DNA from: Microcoleus sp. FACHB-68
GTDB lineage: Bacteria > Cyanobacteriota > Cyanobacteriia > Cyanobacteriales > Oscillatoriaceae
Length of the DNA: 64,000 nucleotides
Assembly: GCF_014695715.1 (NCBI RefSeq)
Contig: NZ_JACJOT010000008.1
Span: 1,054,001 to 1,118,000 of the forward strand
Reading direction: 5' to 3'
In this document: piece by piece, positions 5,785 through 33,509 of the stretch
Layout of the letters: every line of letters starts with the position of its first letter
How positions within the stretch are numbered: the stretch's first letter is position 1
The notes under the pieces: generated by a model
What the model saw: only the letters and a program-made list of their open reading frames with translations
Told to the model about the DNA's origin: nothing
The model's database searches: none
Made by a program: the position numbers and the translations under genes

Positions 5785-5974
5785 TCACTCTGTAATTAGA
5801 TGTCATTAAACTGCTTACAAAACAATAAAAGAGTAGATTTTTCCGGGATTGGAGCTAGAAAATACCCGAATATCGTTTAAACCGAACCTACCCTGAAAAT
5901 GGTTTGCCTAATCCTTGTAAAATAGTTAAGTTAAAAATTAAATTTTATAATATTTTAACTTTATAAGCTTGTCT

Positions 5975-6445
5975 TTAGTATAATTTTCCAGATTTTACAT
6001 TTTCCCATTCTTGAAAAATTTCTAAATTTTCTTCTTTCATAAAACCTCCCTGAATTTCAATAGAGCTATTTCCTAATTGTTTCATTTGCTGATTGGAAAT
6101 GTTTAGCTCTCTGAAACCGGCATTCTGGGCATCTTCGATGCTGGTTCCGTAGACAATTTTGGAAATATTTGCCCAATGACAAGCACTAAAGCACATGGGA
6201 CAAGGTTCGCAAGTGGAATAAATCACACAACCAGACAAATCAATCGTATTTAATTTTTTGCACGCTTCTCGAATCGCGTGAACTTCGGCATGAGCGGTAA
6301 TATCTGTACTTTGCCAAACAACATTATGCACGCAACTGATAACTTCTCCATCTTTGACAATACACGCGCCAAAAGGAGTTGGCCCTTTTGTTAGACCTTC
6401 TTTGGCTTTTTCGATTGCCATTTTCATGAATTTTTCATCGGTCAT
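5975..6445 (-). CDS. Nucleoside/guanine deaminase family protein
   Basis: A 156-residue zinc deaminase. Zinc ligands and the catalytic acid are visible: HAE with H52 and E54, and PCPMC with C82 and C85. The N-terminal GPTPFGACIVKDG and the tail with EIFQEWENVKSGKLY resemble Bacillus-type guanine deaminase (GuaD) more than the tRNA adenosine deaminase TadA. The likely reaction is hydrolytic deamination of guanine or a related purine. A strong ribosome site (GGAGGAG) precedes the ATG. Substrate is not certain from sequence. Confidence 0.8.
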   Translation of the reverse strand: MTDEKFMKMAIEKAKEGLTKGPTPFGACIVKDGEVISCVHNVVWQSTDITAHAEVHAIREACKKLNTIDLSGCVIYSTCEPCPMCFSACHWANISKIVYGTSIEDAQNAGFRELNISNQQMKQLGNSSIEIQGGFMKEENLEIFQEWENVKSGKLY

Positions 6446-6532
6446 TTTTTAGTTCTCCTCCCTGTTGTTGATGTTAACTATTCCCAAAAGTTGCAATTTT
6501 ACAAGCTTAAATTAGGGAAAGAATCAGGCAAT

Positions 6533-7879
6533 TTACGAACGCTTCTTACCTTTTTTGCTCAACTGACCGGCTATTGCTAATTCTGCCCTAAGAAAATCAA
6601 CAAATTGCCGCGCTGTACGCCCAGAACGACCGTTATGGCGAGTTGCCCACTGTAGTGCTTTATAATCTAAATCTTCTTGACTGAGATTAATGCCGGCTTG
6701 CGCTGCGAGATGGCGGACAATTTTGAGGTAAGTGTCTTGATTTGCCGGCTCGAATGTTAAAGTTAAACCAAAGCGGTCGCTAAATGAAAGCTTTTCTTGA
6801 ACCGTATCCCAAGCGTGAACTTCCTCACCGCTACTCGGACGGGGACGATCATCAAAAAATTCTCGAATTAAGTGCCGCCGGTTAGATGTCGCATAGACAA
6901 TTACATTTTGAGGTCTAGCGGTAATATTTCCTTCCAAAACTACTTTCAGTGCTTTAAAGGCATCGTCATCTTCTTCAAAGGAAAGGTCATCCACAAAAAT
7001 TATAAATTTTTGCGGTAAATTCCGCAACTGCTCAACAATTGTCGGCAAGTCTTTCATGTCAGATTTTGCCACTTCAACAAGACGCAAACCCCGTTCGCCG
7101 CATTCATTCAACAAGGCTTTCACTAACGAAGATTTACCAGAACCACGGCTGCCATAAAGCAAGACGTGCAGCGCTGGAAAACCGGCTAATAAAAATTCTG
7201 TATTTTTAAGTAAGGTTTCTCGCTGAAGTTCATAACCCATTAACTCATTAAGTTTGATAGAATCCGGGTGTGGAATTTTGACTAATTTCCCTGAATTCCA
7301 TCGTACCGCCCGCGCCTCTGCAAACAAGCCAGTGCCGTACTTCTGATAATAATTTGTTAAATTTTCTAGGGCACCTGACCAGTTGTTTTGCGATTGCAAG
7401 AATGATACAATTTGCAGCTTAGATGTAGCTTTTTCTTCAGTCTGTTCATAATCCCAAACAACCGGCGCATCGGGTATTGCGGAAGCAGTTTGCACCCACC
7501 GGCTTAACTGTTCACCGCTGCAATAATACAGACTTTGCAGGGCTTGTAAATCATGTTGGGCGGCAGCGATGAGTGCCGACGGCAAATTGTCGAATTCAGT
7601 TTGCTGCGCGTGTTGGGTAAAGGGATTCTCATCTTTAAGAATTTGAGCGATTAGATAATTTTGCCAGCTTTGATTTTTGGTAGCCAAAGCTTTGAACCAA
7701 CTGCCATAGGCTTGCAGGCAATTCGTACCACTAGCATCGCTTTGGTGGAGGGCTTGCAAGAGGTTGAGGAAAGTTTGACCAACAGTGCCGGTGAGAACGT
7801 TTTGGTAGAGTAGCAGGGAGGCTGCTTGGCGTTGCAGGAACCGGATAGAAGCGATGGTGTGAGTATTGGGAAAAGACAT
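6533..7879 (-). CDS. DUF815-family AAA ATPase
   Basis: A 448-residue protein with an uncharacterised N-terminal half and a C-terminal AAA module typical of DUF815. Walker A is GSRGSGKSSL (about residue 243), Walker B IIFVDDLSFE (about 297), followed by the sensor-like VIVYATSNRRHLI and REFFDDRPRP. The cellular role of this ATPase family is poorly known. The gene is divergent from the GmrSD-like gene, with 118 bases between the two starts. Confidence 0.8.
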   Translation of the reverse strand: MSFPNTHTIASIRFLQRQAASLLLYQNVLTGTVGQTFLNLLQALHQSDASGTNCLQAYGSWFKALATKNQSWQNYLIAQILKDENPFTQHAQQTEFDNLPSALIAAAQHDLQALQSLYYCSGEQLSRWVQTASAIPDAPVVWDYEQTEEKATSKLQIVSFLQSQNNWSGALENLTNYYQKYGTGLFAEARAVRWNSGKLVKIPHPDSIKLNELMGYELQRETLLKNTEFLLAGFPALHVLLYGSRGSGKSSLVKALLNECGERGLRLVEVAKSDMKDLPTIVEQLRNLPQKFIIFVDDLSFEEDDDAFKALKVVLEGNITARPQNVIVYATSNRRHLIREFFDDRPRPSSGEEVHAWDTVQEKLSFSDRFGLTLTFEPANQDTYLKIVRHLAAQAGINLSQEDLDYKALQWATRHNGRSGRTARQFVDFLRAELAIAGQLSKKGKKRS

Positions 7880-7997
7880 GATTACAATTGTATAGCAGTA
7901 AGGGATGCGTTGCTTCCATGTTTAAGGTTATACCTTAGTGAGAGGAGACAACACTTTTCTGAAACGAGAGTCAACCGTACCTAAAATAGGAGTAAGC

Positions 7998-9683
7998 ATG
8001 AGTCCAGCTAAAATTCACGGTGCTGAATATTCTATTGGCAAAGTTTTTAGTGATGATTTTGTCTTTACAATTCCTCTCTATCAGCGTCCCTATGCTTGGA
8101 CAACAGAGCAAGCCGGTGAAATGCTTGAAGACCTCATCGCCTTTTTGGGAGATGGTTACAAATCTATTGAGAATGTCAATCCCTACTTCCTCGGCAGTAT
8201 TGTACTGATTAAAGGCGATTCGCCTGAAGCGGATGTTGTAGATGGTCAGCAACGCCTCACCACCCTCACAATTTTGCTAGCGGCTTTGCGATCCTTGATG
8301 CAGACAGAAAAGGCGAAACACTTGACTCCGTTTCTTTATGAGATTGGGAACCGATTTAAAGGGAGTAAGGACAACTATCGCCTGACTTTACGCGAGCGAG
8401 ATGCAGAGTTTTTTAAAAAAAATATTCAGAAAGAAGGGGGAATTAATAACCTGGCTGAATTAAACTCTGCTGTCCTGTCCGATAGCCAGAAAAATATTAA
8501 AGAGAACGCGCTGCTATTTATTAAACGTTTGCAAGAACTTCCAGAATCTAAACAAGATGACCTCGCTGAATTTATCATCACTCAATGTTTTATGGTTGTC
8601 GTTTCCACTCCCGATATGGATTCGGCTTACCGCATCTTTTCGGTGCTGAATGATCGAGGCTTAGATTTGTCGTATACTGACATTTTAAAATCCGAAATTA
8701 TTGGAAAAATACCTGAAACCGCACAACAAGAAGCCTACACAGCCAAGTGGGAAGCAATTGAAGAGAGGCTAGGGCGCGAGACATTTAAGGATCTTTTCGC
8801 TCACATCCGCATGATTTACCGTAAAGCGAAGCAGAGTGAAAGTATTCTTAAGGAATTTCGCAAAGAGGTGCTGCCGGCGAAAACTCCTCAGCAGTTTATC
8901 GATGAAACCCTAGAGCCTCTTGCTGATGCTTTTTATGATATTAAAAATTTATCTTATCAAAGTGAAAAGTTTGCTGAGAAAATCAATGGAATGTTTAAAT
9001 GCTTAAATCAAATTGATAATTCTGATTGGATGCCCCCGGCAATTTTTTATCTATCGCAGAATTATAACAAACCAGACTTGCTCGTGCGCTTTTTTAATGA
9101 TTTGGAGCGCCTTGCTGCCGGTTTGATGATTCAGCGATTTAATATTAACAAACGCATTGAATCCTACCGCCGGTTATTAATGGCTATCGAACAAGGCGAA
9201 GATTTATACACATCGGCATCTCCGCTTCAGCTTACTCCTGAAGCTCAGAATAATATCCTGCAAATTCTCAATGGGGATATTTATTTAGTTCCGAAAATTT
9301 GCAGTTATACCTTGCTTCGCTTAGACGCCAAACTTTCTGAAGGTGAAGCATCTTATCATTTCCCTAATGTAACGGTCGAACACGTACTACCTCAATCACC
9401 CGCTGCTAACAGCGAGTGGATGCAATGGTTTCCGACTCAGGAAGAAAGACAGAAATATGTACATCGCTTAGGAAATTTGGTTTTGCTGTCCCGCAAAAAA
9501 AACAGTCGGGCACAAAACTACCACTTTGATCGTAAAAAACAGCAATATTTCACAACTCAAAGTGGTGTTTCTGCATTTGCGATAACGACCCAAGTGCTGC
9601 ACGAAAAGGAATGGACAACGGCAGTCATTGAGCGCCGGCAGAAGAATTTAATGGATGTTCTCAAAAACCTTTGGCGTTTATAA
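7998..9683 (+). CDS. GmrSD-like DUF262/DUF1524 protein (single chain)
   Basis: A 561-residue protein. The N-terminal DUF262 domain has LYQRPYAW (about 27-34) and the ParB/Srx-like nucleotide motif DGQQRLTTL (82-90). The C-terminal DUF1524 domain has an HNH-type motif, VEHVLPQSP (H about 461) with HRLGNLVLLSRKKNS. This is the domain order of fused type IV modification-dependent restriction enzymes (GmrSD), which use a nucleotide-dependent module to cleave modified phage DNA. A defence role is likely but unproven. A GTG at 7938 would lengthen it; the ATG at 7998 has TAGGAG at good spacing. Confidence 0.8.
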   Translation: MSPAKIHGAEYSIGKVFSDDFVFTIPLYQRPYAWTTEQAGEMLEDLIAFLGDGYKSIENVNPYFLGSIVLIKGDSPEADVVDGQQRLTTLTILLAALRSLMQTEKAKHLTPFLYEIGNRFKGSKDNYRLTLRERDAEFFKKNIQKEGGINNLAELNSAVLSDSQKNIKENALLFIKRLQELPESKQDDLAEFIITQCFMVVVSTPDMDSAYRIFSVLNDRGLDLSYTDILKSEIIGKIPETAQQEAYTAKWEAIEERLGRETFKDLFAHIRMIYRKAKQSESILKEFRKEVLPAKTPQQFIDETLEPLADAFYDIKNLSYQSEKFAEKINGMFKCLNQIDNSDWMPPAIFYLSQNYNKPDLLVRFFNDLERLAAGLMIQRFNINKRIESYRRLLMAIEQGEDLYTSASPLQLTPEAQNNILQILNGDIYLVPKICSYTLLRLDAKLSEGEASYHFPNVTVEHVLPQSPAANSEWMQWFPTQEERQKYVHRLGNLVLLSRKKNSRAQNYHFDRKKQQYFTTQSGVSAFAITTQVLHEKEWTTAVIERRQKNLMDVLKNLWRL

Positions 9684-27947: not shown

Positions 27948-28502
27948 TTAGTCGTTTTCTAATTTTTGGACGGTTTGAGCGACAACAACTGGCTTATTTT
28001 GGTATTCAGCTTCTATCTTTTTCTTAACGTCCAAATCCCACTGCAAATCGTAGTCTTTCTCAAATTCAGCAAGAACAAAGTTGCGGACTGTGCCGGTGAC
28101 GCTGACCTCATTATCGTCTGTGATAGGTGTCGCGGGGTTGGCATTAATCACCAGCACTTTTTCATTATTAAATAACTGCTGACCTTCCAATCTGAAGGAA
28201 CGAGGGCCAACAATTTCGTCAACTTCTCCCTCGAGAGTTACAGTTTGACCAACCAGTTTGGTGGGGTTATCAGCCACATTATTGACTGATGTTGTAGGCG
28301 GAGGAGCGACTGCTTCTGTTGTTTGCGTGGCTACCGGAGGTGCAGGAGCGACTGCCTCTTTGTTGGGTTCGTTGTTGCAAGCACCCAGAACTGCTGTTAG
28401 AAGTCCTAGGGCCATAATTCCCCCAATATTTCCTAATTTTGAGGTGATGCCGCCGGCACGTTCACGGATGCTAGCATCGTTGTTTTTAAATGTATTTTGC
28501 AT
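27948..28502 (-). CDS. Lipoprotein with OB-fold-like domain
   Basis: A 184-residue protein. A basic N-terminus and hydrophobic stretch lead to a lipobox, AVLGAC, with the lipidated cysteine at residue 42. A Pro/Thr/Ala linker (about 50-75) precedes a small beta domain (about 82-150) beginning GQTVTLEGEVDEIVGPRSF, resembling OB-fold (tRNA_anti-like) folds found in bacterial lipoproteins. AGAGGAGG precedes the ATG. Function unknown. Confidence 0.72.
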   Translation of the reverse strand: MQNTFKNNDASIRERAGGITSKLGNIGGIMALGLLTAVLGACNNEPNKEAVAPAPPVATQTTEAVAPPPTTSVNNVADNPTKLVGQTVTLEGEVDEIVGPRSFRLEGQQLFNNEKVLVINANPATPITDDNEVSVTGTVRNFVLAEFEKDYDLQWDLDVKKKIEAEYQNKPVVVAQTVQKLEND

Positions 28503-28774
28503 GGAAAACCTCCTCTAACTACTGAGTACGTCCTGGCTATTTTGGCCTACAGTCATGCCGGTGAAGAACATCTTGAAGTGACTGCAATACTCGCTTTTTA
28601 ACTTTCTAAGCTCACCCTATCGGAGTTCACTGAGCAGCCACATCTTTCTTTGGGCTTGCAATAGTCTCTTTCTTAGGAGGTATATTTCTGTATCTCGGCA
28701 ATCTTTGTTTTTCAGATAATTTGCATAATTCACGCGCTAACGTGGGAGGGTGAGGCTCCTTTAGCATTGCTTTT

Positions 28775-30568
28775 TTATCCGTAAGACTCAAACTTTAGAA
28801 TAAAAGTCGTTTGCCCGTAACTGCTTTCAACGGATATCTTAATTCCTAACTGATCAGCAAATTTTTTCACCAGTGCTAACCCTAGTCCTGTCCCCCCATG
28901 TTTCCAGGGGTCATTGTTAGGAATGCGGTAGAACTTATCAAAGATTCGATCACATTCATCTGCTGGAATTTCCACGCCAGAGTTACTGACCAAAATTTCT
29001 AAGCCGGTTGGGGTTGCTTGTGCAGATAAAGTGATGGTTTCTCCTGGAGGAGTGTATTTCCAGGCATTATGCAGGAGTTCGGTTAAAATGCGCTCTAGGT
29101 AGGAAAGATCCGTGGTTAACGGAGGTAGATTTTCAGGAATTTTGATTTCTAGTTGCTGCTGGTGATTGCGGGTACGTTCAATAAATGGTTCGGCAACATG
29201 AGGAATATAAAATTCGAGAATAACATCATCAGTGAGATTGAGCGGTTCAGTCCCTGAATCTAGGCGAGTCATATCGAGGAGATCGTTGATTAAACTAATC
29301 TCGCGCTGCCCTTCTTCTTGAAGAATTTTGAAATAGCGGTTAATTGAGCTGGAGTCACTGGCGAATACACCCAAAGGCTCTAAACTAATTTTCAGCATTT
29401 GGGTTGCCATTTTGATGCTAGACATGGGCGTCCGCAGTTCATGGGAAACGGTACTAAGAAAATCATCTTTTAGCTGATTCAGTCGTTCCAGTTCTTGTAC
29501 TTGAAGCTGAGCTGCCTGATACAAACGAGATTGACGCATGGCAATCGCGCAATGATTGGCGACTTGTTGCACTAGCCGAATTTCTAAGTTGTTAAAGCTT
29601 CCTTCTTTTTGCCGGAACAGCCACAGATCGCCTAAAATTCCTTGATCGTCATAGATGGGGCAAGCGAGACTGGCTAATTGGCTAGAACTATGAATTAACC
29701 AATCTGGGGTGATGGCGCAAAATTGAGAGGCTTCTCCTTGCAATAGGGAGGGATAAATAACTGGACGAGGAGGATTTATTTTCTGGACTTGCCCTAAAGT
29801 TGAAGTCGGAGTTTGATTGTATGTGTAAGCAATAGAAACGAGGGTTTGATCAGCATTATAAATAGCGGCATCGCAATATTCGATCCCTAACCCAACTCCC
29901 AATTCTTGCACGGCTGTTTGCAAGATTTGTCCCTCATCAAGACTGTCACGAACTTTATCAGTAATTCGTTGCAGTAATGACTCAAAACTCAGTGCTTGTT
30001 GCAGTTGAGCAGTGCGTTGCTCAACTTGCTCTTCGAGCTGAGCATTGAGTTCGAGCAGCTCTAGTTGCTTGGCTGCCAATTCTACCTGAACTTGCTCTAG
30101 TGCTGCGTTTGCTAGGTTTTGGGCATGAATGGCTGCCTCTGCGGTTTTCTTTGCCTGAAGAATTTCAGCTTCGTACTGAATACGCTGCCGCATCGGCACA
30201 AAGATGCAGTCATTGACAAAGTTCCCTGCACGTTCCCGGCGCACGGCATTCACGAGCATGGGGACATCAGTTCCCTGCTTGGATCTGACGGAGATGTAGA
30301 TCTCCTCTGCTTTGCCGTGCAGTTTTAGCAGTGGGAAGAAATGGGTCTGATAAAAGATGCGGCTGGCAAGTGGTAAAATCGATTCCATCCGCCGGCCCCG
30401 CAATGCATCGAACTCGTAACCGAGTAATTCCAGCAGGGTGGCATTGACGATCATAATGGTGCCATCATCGGTAAACGAGAGGAAACCGCAGGGTGCGGTG
30501 TTTAGCAGCTCGTCTCCGTGGCCCATCATAAACTGTTGGCAGTGCGCCTCAGGTAGCATGAGCGGCAA
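28775..30568 (-). CDS. PAS-GAF sensor histidine kinase
   Basis: A 597-residue kinase: PAS domain (about 18-130), coiled coil (about 140-190), GAF-like domain (about 195-350), HisKA with SHELRTPM and H376, and a HATPase domain with LLHNAWKYTPP, VSNSGV and HGGTGLGLAL. All catalytic boxes look intact. No membrane helix is seen, so it is soluble. The TTG start at 30568 has AAGGAG seven bases upstream, inside the preceding hydrolase gene, and overlaps it by 20 bases; the ATG at 30559 is the alternative. The overlap implies translational coupling to the RsbQ-like hydrolase. Confidence 0.88.
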   Translation of the reverse strand: MPLMLPEAHCQQFMMGHGDELLNTAPCGFLSFTDDGTIMIVNATLLELLGYEFDALRGRRMESILPLASRIFYQTHFFPLLKLHGKAEEIYISVRSKQGTDVPMLVNAVRRERAGNFVNDCIFVPMRQRIQYEAEILQAKKTAEAAIHAQNLANAALEQVQVELAAKQLELLELNAQLEEQVEQRTAQLQQALSFESLLQRITDKVRDSLDEGQILQTAVQELGVGLGIEYCDAAIYNADQTLVSIAYTYNQTPTSTLGQVQKINPPRPVIYPSLLQGEASQFCAITPDWLIHSSSQLASLACPIYDDQGILGDLWLFRQKEGSFNNLEIRLVQQVANHCAIAMRQSRLYQAAQLQVQELERLNQLKDDFLSTVSHELRTPMSSIKMATQMLKISLEPLGVFASDSSSINRYFKILQEEGQREISLINDLLDMTRLDSGTEPLNLTDDVILEFYIPHVAEPFIERTRNHQQQLEIKIPENLPPLTTDLSYLERILTELLHNAWKYTPPGETITLSAQATPTGLEILVSNSGVEIPADECDRIFDKFYRIPNNDPWKHGGTGLGLALVKKFADQLGIKISVESSYGQTTFILKFESYG

Positions 30569-31364
30569 TCAGATACTCCTTAATCAGATCGATAGTCTCC
30601 TGTGGATGGCTCATGTGTGGGCAATGTCCCGTAGCTTTCATCAGTTGCAGGGTGCTTTTAGGCAGGTGGCGGTGGAGGTATTGTCCGACCTCGATGGGAG
30701 CGAGCGTATCCTCACAGCATTGCAAGATTAGTGAGGGTGTCGTCACTTTGGGCAAATCACTGCGGTTGTCGGAGAAAAAAGTAACCTGAGCAAAGCGGCT
30801 TGCGATCACTGGATCGGTCGAGCAGAAGCTTGTTTCAAGCTCATTAGTTAGCTCTGAGTGCTCCTCATTTTTCATAATAATGGGAGCCATAATGTTTGCC
30901 CAACCCATGTAATTTTTCTCCATGATATCAAGCAGCCCCTCAATGTCTCTGCGCTCGAATCCTCCTACATAATTAGGGGGATCATTTATATAGTTGGGTG
31001 AAGGACTGACGAGTATGAGTTGATCAAAGTAATTAGGGGATTCTATGGATGACAAGATGCCAATGGCGCTACTGACGGAATGCCCGACGAAAATCACGTC
31101 TGTTAAATTTAATGCTTTGCAAATATCAAGGACATCCTGAGAATAACCGTTGAGATCGCTGTAGCGCTCAGCATTATAAGCGAGAAGATCCGATTTCCCA
31201 GACCCTACATAGTCGAATAGGATAATTTGGTAGTCGTTCTCAAAGGCCGGCGTTACGAAACGCCACATATTCTGGTCACAACCGAACCCATGTGCAAACA
31301 GCATGGGCTGTGACCCTTGCCCGAACATTGTCACGTTGTTCCGTACCAGAATGTTTTGAGCCAT
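30549..31364 (-). CDS. RsbQ-like alpha/beta hydrolase
   Basis: A 271-residue alpha/beta hydrolase. The nucleophile is S96 (GHSVS), the acid D219 (EDTLAP) and the base H247 (GHCPHM), the same numbers as in Bacillus RsbQ; plant D14/KAI2 receptors have nearly the same spacing. Oxyanion region is FAHGFGCDQNMW. RsbQ works with the PAS domain of RsbP to signal energy stress, probably by making a small ligand. Here the overlapping partner is a PAS histidine kinase. The ATG at 31364 has GAGGAG five bases upstream. Confidence 0.87.
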   Translation of the reverse strand: MAQNILVRNNVTMFGQGSQPMLFAHGFGCDQNMWRFVTPAFENDYQIILFDYVGSGKSDLLAYNAERYSDLNGYSQDVLDICKALNLTDVIFVGHSVSSAIGILSSIESPNYFDQLILVSPSPNYINDPPNYVGGFERRDIEGLLDIMEKNYMGWANIMAPIIMKNEEHSELTNELETSFCSTDPVIASRFAQVTFFSDNRSDLPKVTTPSLILQCCEDTLAPIEVGQYLHRHLPKSTLQLMKATGHCPHMSHPQETIDLIKEYLIAAHAT

Positions 31365-31744
31365 TTTACTCCTCAATGAGTAAAGTATTTTACTGACTTT
31401 AACTAATCTTCTCAGAGTTTAGCTATTTAATTAAACTCAGTTAAATTAAATAATAACTTTTATTTTTTAAAAATAGTTAATTGCTGATAGAAAACTTGCA
31501 TATCTTTTGTAAAGATTAGTACAAAGAAGTCTGTAATTTCCGAATAAAGTAGGCTCAGCTTCTATTATGTAAAGTTATTCAAATATTGTGAGCGTCAGTT
31601 ACTCAGCCGGCACGCAACATCTTTTAAAGAATTGTTAGGAATTTCTGTAATTTAGAGGGGAAAAGGGGGAAGCGAGTTCGCCCTTTTCCGGGAAAGTTAG
31701 GAGGAATTAACCAGTCGTGCCGGCCTCAACAATTTAACAATCGC
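31365..31744. other. Intergenic region upstream of the hydrolase-kinase pair
   Basis: About 380 bases, strongly AT-rich at 31410-31480, lying between the carotenoid oxygenase stop and the RsbQ-like start. It presumably holds the promoter of the hydrolase-kinase unit. No specific site is recognised. Confidence 0.4.
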
Positions 31745-33211
31745 TCAGGCTGGGTTCCAAGTGCCGTGAAATCCCATCGGCACAACGCTGGGTAAAGCCA
31801 ACCGGCACACCGGCGGCGCATCTAGCTGATCGGCATCAAAAATCCAAACTTCGCTGCTGTTGCGTTCGCCATCAAACACGACTGTGATGATCCAACCGCG
31901 ATCTGGATTTTCTGCATCCGCACAATAGAGAGGTTCGGTTGGGTAGCGGTTATCTCCTAAATCAGCCTCTGTGAGGGTGCCGGTGTGATAGTCGAAGCGA
32001 GCGATCGCGCCATAGAGTTCTGGGCCAATATCAACGCCTTGCCGGTGGAGGGTTAGATAAGTAAAGCGCGACGCTTGGCCCATTTCGGCGGGGGCGACCG
32101 TGGGAAACTCGCAACTACGATCAACCACTTCTTGCTGTTGAGTGATTTGACCCGATTGCGGATCGAGACGAAGTTGCCATAGTGTCGCCTTAGCAGCCGT
32201 TTCTACATGGCCGGTTGCCACTTGCTTAAGCCGGTGATTGGTCTGAAAATCTTCGTAGCGGGCAAGATCCACCACCACAGATCCACCGGCATCGACATAG
32301 CCATTACCGAAGTGCCACTGATACCAGGGTTCCGCTTCACTGCGACTGACCACTTCCAAGGTGTTGCGATCAATGACTAAAATCTGGGTTCCTTTTTCTG
32401 GATGCCAAGCAAGTGCGTCGCTGTAGCTTTTTTGCTGAAACAGCACCGGCAGGGGGTTGAGGCGCACCGGCGGGATGAAAAAGACTAAATAGTTGCCGGC
32501 GAGAACAAAATCATGAAGTAGGGGCACGCCATCCAGGGTGATACTGTTTTGTTGCACCAGCTTGCCGGCGCTATTTGATCGGTAAACGTGCAAGACGGCA
32601 TTTTTCCCAGGCGCTACGCCAAAATTATAAATCTCGCCGGTTTCGGGGTCACGTTTCGGGTGGGCGGAGTAGTTCCAAGCGGTTTTTAACCCCTCTAAAT
32701 CATCCAGTCCAACGGTTTCTAGGGTTTGCAGATCCAGTTGGTGGGGGTGCCCGCCTTCCCAAAGGGCTAGCAGCTTGTCGGGTAACGCCAGTACAGAGGT
32801 ATTCGCCGCATTTTTTACGGCTTTCGTCAACCGTCGCCAAATTGGCCCTGTTCCTGTCATGCCATAGCCGCCGTAAAGAAGTTTGCCGGCTGCTTCCTCG
32901 TCTTGGTAGCCGGTGGTTTTCACGTAGCGGTAAAGTCCGGTAGCCGTTCCCTCTTGTCCCTTTTGGTTAAAATGAACCGCTAAAATTGCCCCATCGCCAT
33001 CAAACCAATGGCCCATGCGCTGTCCGCCGCGTTCTAAGCGTCCTGGGCCATTGCGGTAGAGGGAACCGCGTAAACCGGCAGGCAGTTTGCCGGCAAGAAT
33101 TGGCAGGGGTGTGGGGTCAAATTCCGCTGCCGGTGGCATGATTGCTTTTGCCCAAGTCAGGGCCGGTTTCACATCTGTTTTTAAGGGCGTTGTGGAAATA
33201 TTGCGAACCAT
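31745..33211 (-). CDS. Carotenoid oxygenase (apocarotenoid-15,15'-oxygenase type)
   Basis: A 488-residue protein, close to the length of Synechocystis ACO. The four iron-binding histidines are visible: H184 (YSAHPKRD), H233 (LLHDFVL), H300 (QWHFGNGY) and H482 (GFHGTW). Family landmarks LYRNGPGRLERGG and HWFDGDGAILAV occur near residues 50-75. These non-haem iron enzymes cleave carotenoids or apocarotenals, for example to retinal. AGGAG lies upstream of the ATG at 33211; a longer frame from 33271 lacks support. Confidence 0.93.
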   Translation of the reverse strand: MVRNISTTPLKTDVKPALTWAKAIMPPAAEFDPTPLPILAGKLPAGLRGSLYRNGPGRLERGGQRMGHWFDGDGAILAVHFNQKGQEGTATGLYRYVKTTGYQDEEAAGKLLYGGYGMTGTGPIWRRLTKAVKNAANTSVLALPDKLLALWEGGHPHQLDLQTLETVGLDDLEGLKTAWNYSAHPKRDPETGEIYNFGVAPGKNAVLHVYRSNSAGKLVQQNSITLDGVPLLHDFVLAGNYLVFFIPPVRLNPLPVLFQQKSYSDALAWHPEKGTQILVIDRNTLEVVSRSEAEPWYQWHFGNGYVDAGGSVVVDLARYEDFQTNHRLKQVATGHVETAAKATLWQLRLDPQSGQITQQQEVVDRSCEFPTVAPAEMGQASRFTYLTLHRQGVDIGPELYGAIARFDYHTGTLTEADLGDNRYPTEPLYCADAENPDRGWIITVVFDGERNSSEVWIFDADQLDAPPVCRLALPSVVPMGFHGTWNPA

Positions 33212-33403
33212 TGGTGAATTCTCCTGTTTTAGCTGTGGGCTTCTAAATGCACTTATTCTTTGTTTTGTCAAGTTAAATTTGTGAGCAAACCCTCGGTTGC
33301 CGTGATGACCACAGCCTTGCTTGCCAGTGCCGGTGAATAAAGCTTTTTGGTGCCAGACTTCATCTGCAAATTTTGGCTAAGGCAATCAATTGCCAGACTG
33401 TTT

Positions 33404-33418
33404 GGGGTGAAGCACCCC
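33404..33418. repeat. Small hairpin GGGGTG/CACCCC
   Basis: A perfect 6-bp stem with a 3-base loop in the divergent gap between the carotenoid oxygenase and the DprA-like gene. It could act in the leader of the latter. Confidence 0.4.
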
Positions 33419-33509
33419 CTAGTTCCCATTTTGCTGTGAGAATTTGAGCCATGCCACACCTTCTGTCTGCTACAATGTCGTGGTTGTTCTGTTCAGCGTT
33501 ATAGCGTCT

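Follow-up and report, generated by a model that had tools for sequence, protein, structure and literature searches.

What does a hydrolase do beside a sensor kinase? The question is raised by a 64,000-nucleotide stretch of the genome of the cyanobacterium Microcoleus sp. FACHB-68 (contig NZ_JACJOT010000008.1, positions 1,054,001 to 1,118,000; hereafter the window), in which the gene of an RsbQ-type alpha/beta hydrolase overlaps that of a histidine kinase carrying PAS and GAF domains. The original prediction, made from the DNA letters, was that the two proteins form a sensory pair in which the hydrolase makes or presents a small ligand for the kinase PAS domain. In our analysis the best explanation overall is an RsbQ-PAS input module, encoded by two genes, that feeds a histidine kinase and works through a docked hydrolase, a reading to which we give a probability of about three in four. 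That an RsbQ-PAS module controls a kinase here is highly probable. A bipartite RsbQ-PAS sensing module with kinase output was published by Nadezhdin, Brody and Price in 2011 (PMC3183031). As the window pair is that module, the idea of a sensory pair is supported, by the class of the PAS domain and by conserved pairing, but it is not new.

The window hydrolase is a true RsbQ. Its best match among solved structures in the Protein Data Bank (PDB) is Bacillus subtilis RsbQ (1wom, E 8.5e-109, 366 bits), the top plant entry in the same comparison scoring 207 bits, and the Bacillus and window proteins are 58% identical over the 262 residues compared. The Ser-Asp-His catalytic triad is intact in all 94 RsbQ-clade hydrolases of our locus set (26 cyanobacterial and 68 non-cyanobacterial, including 80 named loci from GTDB genomes), among them the window protein with S96, D219 and H247. 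In a tree built by a quick method, all 96 RsbQ-clade rows lie on one branch of length 1.13 with a Shimodaira-Hasegawa-like approximate likelihood ratio (SH-aLRT) support of 100, and the window hydrolase is placed among the cyanobacterial RsbQ rows rather than grouping with KAI2/D14. These rows are the 94 loci, B. subtilis RsbQ and Olei00960, which has a very long branch and an unsure placement. The original assignment as an RsbQ-type hydrolase with this triad is thus borne out by the PDB match, the triad and the tree alike.

The other side of that branch holds the plant KAI2/D14 receptors (four tree rows, including a reconstructed ancestor) together with KAI2-like cyanobacterial hydrolases. 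Hence the nearness to D14/KAI2 that had also been claimed stands at the level of the alpha/beta-hydrolase superfamily, where the triad is shared and the window hydrolase is 37-39% identical to the four plant rows, but goes no further, as a well-supported branch separates the window protein, a member of the RsbQ clade, from the plant receptors. The plant proteins also differ in output: KAI2/D14 receptors signal via an F-box protein and repressor degradation, not via a PAS domain. Four hydrolase cysteines (29, 181, 216 and 248) are 96-100% conserved across the RsbQ clade and found in at most one-quarter of the KAI2-like relatives; C248 directly follows the catalytic histidine in the window protein. 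From this conservation pattern a redox or metal role for these cysteines is possible.

The partner PAS domain was compared with the residues that, in the 2011 paper as far as its sections report, mark RsbP PAS domains having an RsbQ partner; these are nine in number, and the DIT motif is absent from such domains (PMC3183031). The positions tested, taken from that paper, were 10, 13, 48, 53, 55, 56, 59, 72 and 86, plus P62. With the published spacing and no gaps, the window PAS has C27, L30, L65, R70, F72, Y73, H76, P79, E89 and P103 at RsbP positions 10, 13, 48, 53, 55, 56, 59, 62, 72 and 86, respectively, and its C-terminal end reads CIFVPMRQR, the DIT motif being absent. Among 87 aligned RsbP-type PAS domains, position 55 is Phe in 82, position 59 is His or Tyr in 86, position 62 is Pro in all 87 and position 72 is Glu in 82. 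As controls, five PAS domains were scored on an RsbP-PAS profile and reached between 2.5 and 38.8 bits; one of them, L032, ranks next after the partner PAS in the window's own genome, and the other four come from related loci. By comparison, the cyanobacterial partner PAS domains gave 143-176 bits on a related profile that was not the one used for the controls. A phmmer search of the PDB found no solved relative of the window PAS at E 0.01. By its class residues and the missing DIT motif the partner PAS is assigned to the RsbP class, as the sensory-pair idea had supposed.

The window pair can therefore be set beside the systems already described. It shares with the kinase branch of the RsbQ-PAS module an RsbQ homologue immediately upstream, an N-terminal PAS of RsbP type with the class residues and without the DIT motif, and a histidine kinase output. 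It differs in being cyanobacterial, whereas the 45 cases of the 2011 paper are described there as organo-heterotrophs, with PPM, histidine kinase and GGDEF named as outputs, and in having a GAF domain between PAS and kinase where the paper's sections mention extra PAS domains (PMC3183031). A third difference is Ser120 in the hydrolase. Output in the published module usually runs through a coiled coil; the window pair has the kinase output, with a GAF inserted and a putative coiled coil judged by eye. The B. subtilis RsbQ-RsbP pair, the energy branch of sigma B, agrees in hydrolase identity, triad numbering and PAS class; its output is a PPM phosphatase, that of the window pair a histidine kinase.

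The pairing was surveyed in 386 cyanobacterial genomes, the window's own included, drawn evenly across the phylum. Up to six first-look candidates per genome were scored for the hydrolase and up to 11 for RsbP-PAS, with cut-offs of E <= 1e-45 for the hydrolase superfamily, E <= 1e-12 for RsbP-PAS and an identity of 64% or more for RsbQ proper. RsbQ-superfamily hydrolases were present in 22 genomes, 10 of which have RsbQ proper (the next hydrolases being at 46% identity or less), and RsbP-PAS was confined to the same 10 genomes. The chance of such agreement is about 6e-20 if genomes are taken as independent; kinship raises the true figure. The two genes are at most 0.9 kb apart in 9 of the 10 genomes, and among the nearer relatives 7 of 40 genomes, again including the window's own, carry the module. 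In the locus set, the PAS gene is fused to the hydrolase or at most 1 kb away in 91 of the 94 RsbQ-clade loci. The three exceptions are L088 and L107, taken up below, and L105, where the contig stops after the hydrolase. Outside cyanobacteria, RsbQ-PAS is present in Bacillus, Bacteroidota and Gemmatimonadota. Two of the conditions that would have refuted the original prediction, a gene pair not conserved in relatives and a PAS unrelated to that of RsbP, were checked, and both spoke for the prediction. In one genome (G101, locus L082, G101:C4, 6261-7374) the hydrolase and PAS partner open reading frames (ORFs) have both been cut short, as though the two genes were decaying jointly, or through sequencing error.

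The hydrolase and the PAS domain co-evolve more closely than the PAS does with its own kinase domain. In a mirror-tree comparison the tree distances of hydrolase and PAS had an r of 0.67 for 86 pairs, the remaining five of the 91 being set aside for their short PAS stretches, and r 0.82 over 24 cyanobacterial pairs, a value reached by none of 500 permutations. With the kinase partners alone (44 of 47 pairs used) the correlation was 0.66 for hydrolase and PAS, 0.50 for hydrolase and kinase and 0.43 for PAS and kinase, though the last two share a chain; 10 cyanobacterial kinase pairs gave 0.89 for hydrolase-PAS and 0.42 for hydrolase-kinase.

The output domain, by contrast with the fixed hydrolase-PAS unit, is exchangeable. 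When the partners at the 91 linked loci were classed with self-built profiles (Pfam, applied to part of them, agreed), we found 47 kinases, six of them hybrid, 22 GGDEF proteins, 12 PPM phosphatases, one class III cyclase and nine undefined outputs, the last comprising four PAS-only proteins of Paenibacillus, one hydrolase-PAS fusion and four broken or cut frames. The hydrolase tree requires at least seven output changes over its 82 labelled rows, or five when the 22 cyanobacterial rows alone are counted, both figures coming from a quick tree with many weak forks. The cyclase belongs to Planktothrix paucivesiculata (L122, 4880-6819), where an RsbP-type PAS is joined to the class III cyclase and its gene lies upstream of RsbQ, in reversed order. 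The fusion, from Modicisalibacter luteus (L145, 5983-7155), is a single 390-residue chain of hydrolase and PAS with no output domain; it adjoins the gene of a GAF sigma-54 activator. At the four Paenibacillus loci (L136, L140, L142 and L174) RsbQ stands beside a PAS-only protein of 152-185 residues in which no output domain was found, Pfam having been run on L136 only. Such swapping of outputs around a fixed pair supports the view of the pair as a portable receptor.

How would the pair work? In the mechanism that we propose, the hydrolase would bind, and probably slowly hydrolyse, a small molecule and would dock on the Falpha helix of the PAS at F72 and H76, the counterparts of RsbP F55 and Y59. 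The resulting change may be relayed through the linker helix, joined on the way by input from the GAF domain, and so set autophosphorylation of His376, from which phosphate would pass to a response regulator encoded elsewhere in the genome, as no receiver-domain ORF was found in the flanks of the hydrolase (1.5 kb upstream, 3 kb downstream). The precedent is B. subtilis, where the RsbP PAS is reported to be necessary and sufficient for the RsbQ interaction in yeast two-hybrid assays and the F55A substitution to break both RsbQ binding and signalling (PMC3183031). An AlphaFold2 model in a 2025 paper is described as placing RsbQ at an interface of PAS domains and linkers (PMC12143880). The window PAS retains F72 and H76 at the two contact positions.

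The alternatives differ in what they make of the two genes. That hydrolase and kinase are unrelated neighbours overlapping by chance would be unremarkable in itself, since short gene overlaps are common in bacterial genomes, but the exact co-occurrence across 386 genomes, the adjacency in distant phyla, the fusion and the mirror-tree values contradict it, and we consider its likelihood negligible. A closer contender is Model 1 of the 2011 paper, in which the PAS, and not the hydrolase, is the sensor and takes into its pocket the product of a small molecule that the hydrolase has cleaved (PMC3183031). The original prediction is worded much like this model. The invariant triad fits such a ligand maker, as does the reported loss of signalling upon triad substitution in B. 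subtilis (PMC3183031), yet invariance is equally compatible with a receptor that also hydrolyses what it binds. Residue 120 bears on the choice. It is Gly in 65 of the 68 non-cyanobacterial RsbQs, whereas the 26 cyanobacterial ones have Ser (9, the window included), Ala (3), Cys (3) or Gly (11); replacement in 15 of the 26 hints at relaxed catalysis, although 11 keep Gly. The residue is likewise varied in 24 KAI2-like cyanobacterial hydrolases (Gly 13, Ser 7, Asp 2, Cys 2), and Ser at the equivalent KAI2 position 119 is said in part of one report to disturb the catalytic His (PMC3548789). This variation leans weakly to a receptor over an enzyme. We find the ligand maker rather unlikely and, between the two, slightly favour the hydrolase as a docked receptor.

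The other alternative comes from the gene next door. A carotenoid oxygenase gene does lie just upstream of the hydrolase on the same strand, 380 nucleotides away, as had been noted, and it was suggested that its product supplies an apocarotenoid-like ligand in the manner of strigolactone signalling. The arrangement is kept in both congeners. However, window and congeners are the only cases, 3 of 26 cyanobacterial RsbQ loci and one genus (3 of 119 loci scanned overall, with unequal and limited flanks, 7 to 19 kb for the cyanobacterial loci), so no linkage of the kind expected of a carotenoid-cleavage signalling operon was found beyond the genus. The oxygenase neighbour was not found at the other 23 cyanobacterial loci, although oxygenases elsewhere in those genomes were not sought. 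Moreover, the module is found in the non-cyanobacterial groups named above, the window hydrolase is RsbQ proper and not KAI2-like, and a stable hairpin lies between the oxygenase and the pair. The hairpin was chosen by eye from an alignment and is not listed by the terminator scan of the region; that of the window lacks a clean U-run after the stem, and its counterparts have z -2.7 with a U-run (L036) and z -2.0 without one (L035). It is a possible terminator separating the oxygenase from the hydrolase-kinase pair. The apocarotenoid proposal is left unsupported by these results, and we think it very improbable.

Several observations weigh against the docked module as we read it. Tight adjacency of hydrolase and PAS is not indispensable: in G368 (L088) the genes are 115 kb apart, and in G103 a gap of 814 nucleotides holds a small ORF. 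No RsbP-PAS was found on the contig of L107, where the hydrolase starts 156 nucleotides from the contig end, and the module is patchy, at 10 of 386 genomes. Judging from its Ser120 in place of the usual Gly, the window hydrolase may differ in catalysis from other RsbQs. AlphaFold2 folded both domains of the natural fusion L145 but left their placement unsettled (predicted local distance difference test score 93.4, predicted template modelling score 0.74); with this model Foldseek returned hydrolases only among the 50 matches listed, RsbQ first. To our knowledge the cyanobacterial pair has no described ligand, regulator or phenotype.

The features of the locus are collected in the table. The original prediction had the kinase starting at a TTG with an AAGGAG site inside the hydrolase gene, giving an overlap of 20 bases. 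All of this is present, and the TTG is a possible start, yet it is kept in only one of five printed homologues (L036), and the congener L035 has CTG. An in-frame ATG at 30559, nine bases inside the TTG, would reduce the overlap to 11 bases. Judged by eye, this ATG has its counterpart at the matching position of each of the six printed sequences (window, L035, L036, L037, L038 and L085); as the TTG does not, the ATG is the likelier start by sequence comparison, despite a long spacing of 16 nucleotides from the AAGGAG. Promoter-like and terminator-like matches in 28400-33500 were no commoner than in shuffled sequences (8 versus a mean of 6.6, and 5 versus 6.3), so we propose no promoter.

Table. 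Features of the hydrolase-kinase locus and its neighbour, in window coordinates.
Feature	Position	Strand	Details
PAS-linker-GAF-linker-histidine kinase ORF	28775..30568	minus	597 residues from TTG 30568; Pfam PAS, GAF, HisKA, HATPase_c
RsbP-type PAS domain	30185..30520	minus	kinase residues 17-128
Long linker from PAS to GAF, charged, helical-looking	29954..30184	minus	coiled coil by eye only
GAF domain	29537..29932	minus	kinase residues 213-344; Pfam E 1.3e-08
HisKA domain	29252..29470	minus	Pfam E 6.1e-16
Phospho-acceptor His376 codon	29441-29443	minus	in HisKA
HATPase_c ATP-binding domain	28790..29110	minus	Pfam E 1.3e-21
AAGGAG ribosome-binding-like site, 7-nucleotide spacer and TTG	30566..30581	minus	inside hydrolase gene
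RsbQ-type alpha/beta hydrolase	30549..31364	minus	ATG at 31364, stop codon ending at 30549, 271 residues
Hydrolase catalytic codons	Ser96 31077-31079; Asp219 30708-30710; His247 30624-30626	minus	
Hydrolase residue 120 (Ser) codon	31005-31007	minus	
Conserved Cys 29, 181, 216, 248 codons	31278-31280, 30822-30824, 30717-30719, 30621-30623	minus	
Carotenoid oxygenase (RPE65 family)	31745..33271	minus	Pfam E 1.3e-136; neighbour, outside the module
Stable hairpin after oxygenase gene	31650..31695	minus	-15.5 kcal/mol, z -3.5, 0/200 shuffles as stable

The window's genome encodes two further hydrolases of the RsbQ superfamily. One (G000:C18:383188-383970, in locus L034, G000:C18:377000-393000) stands with a GAF-PAS histidine kinase gene (6174-9362 for the two) that begins 375 nucleotides after it. 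This hydrolase shows 51% identity with moss PpKAI2C (282 bits) and 43% with RsbQ (244 bits). The partner begins at its N-terminus with a conserved part that by eye looks hydrophobic and membrane-like, and continues with a GAF-like part followed by a PAS and a kinase; its PAS ends in a DIT-like motif and is of another type, as it scores only 2.5 bits on the RsbP-PAS profile. Such partners follow all 12 hydrolases of the L034 clade examined, at gaps of -19 to 376 nucleotides. The output is a kinase in four of them, a hybrid kinase in six and a class III cyclase in one; the twelfth, L051, is cut by a contig end. The partner N-terminus occurs in 5 of the 386 genomes, exactly those holding an L034-type hydrolase. 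In three picocyanobacteria of one genus a more distant hydrolase adjoins a GAF-PAS-GGDEF protein (3 of 3), the GAF being assigned from an alignment at 18-20% identity. Counting against a second module, no such partner accompanies the third-hydrolase near copies L033, L041 and L042 or six more distant hydrolases (L090-L095). The third hydrolase itself (L033, G000:C9:220000-236000, 5811-6611) lies beside an M1 peptidase, with no sensor partner found there; the congener loci L041 and L042 resemble it by ORF sizes. Broken hydrolase matches were seen in G003 and G007.

From this sampling within cyanobacteria we tentatively propose, with the odds somewhat against us, that cyanobacteria run two parallel hydrolase-sensor modules with swappable outputs, one of RsbQ and RsbP-PAS and one of a KAI2-like hydrolase and a membrane-like GAF-PAS sensor. 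The co-occurrence of KAI2-like hydrolase and partner is the boldest lead of the analysis. We found no description of such a module in the open-access literature searched. A review considers, in the part available, that KAI2 possibly arose through transfer of a bacterial RsbQ (PMC10504578).

In our search of open-access PMC literature, judged on titles and the first lines of abstracts, no paper dealt with RsbQ of cyanobacteria. The additions to the known module are its cyanobacterial members, the GAF insertion, the class III cyclase output and the hydrolase-PAS fusion. The RsbQ ligand is given as unknown in sections of the 2011 paper (PMC3183031), and the natural KAI2 ligand is termed undiscovered in a 2023 review (PMC10504578). 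With a cyanobacterial RsbQ-PAS kinase, ligands can be screened for outside the sigma B network by a two-component read-out. If real, the KAI2-like module of the same genome would link signalling in bacteria with the way in which karrikin and strigolactone receptors arose. It would then be the nearest bacterial counterpart of those plant receptors to have an identified partner, and would suggest that KAI2-type hydrolases worked as receptors linked to PAS/GAF proteins until plants connected them to an F-box protein instead.

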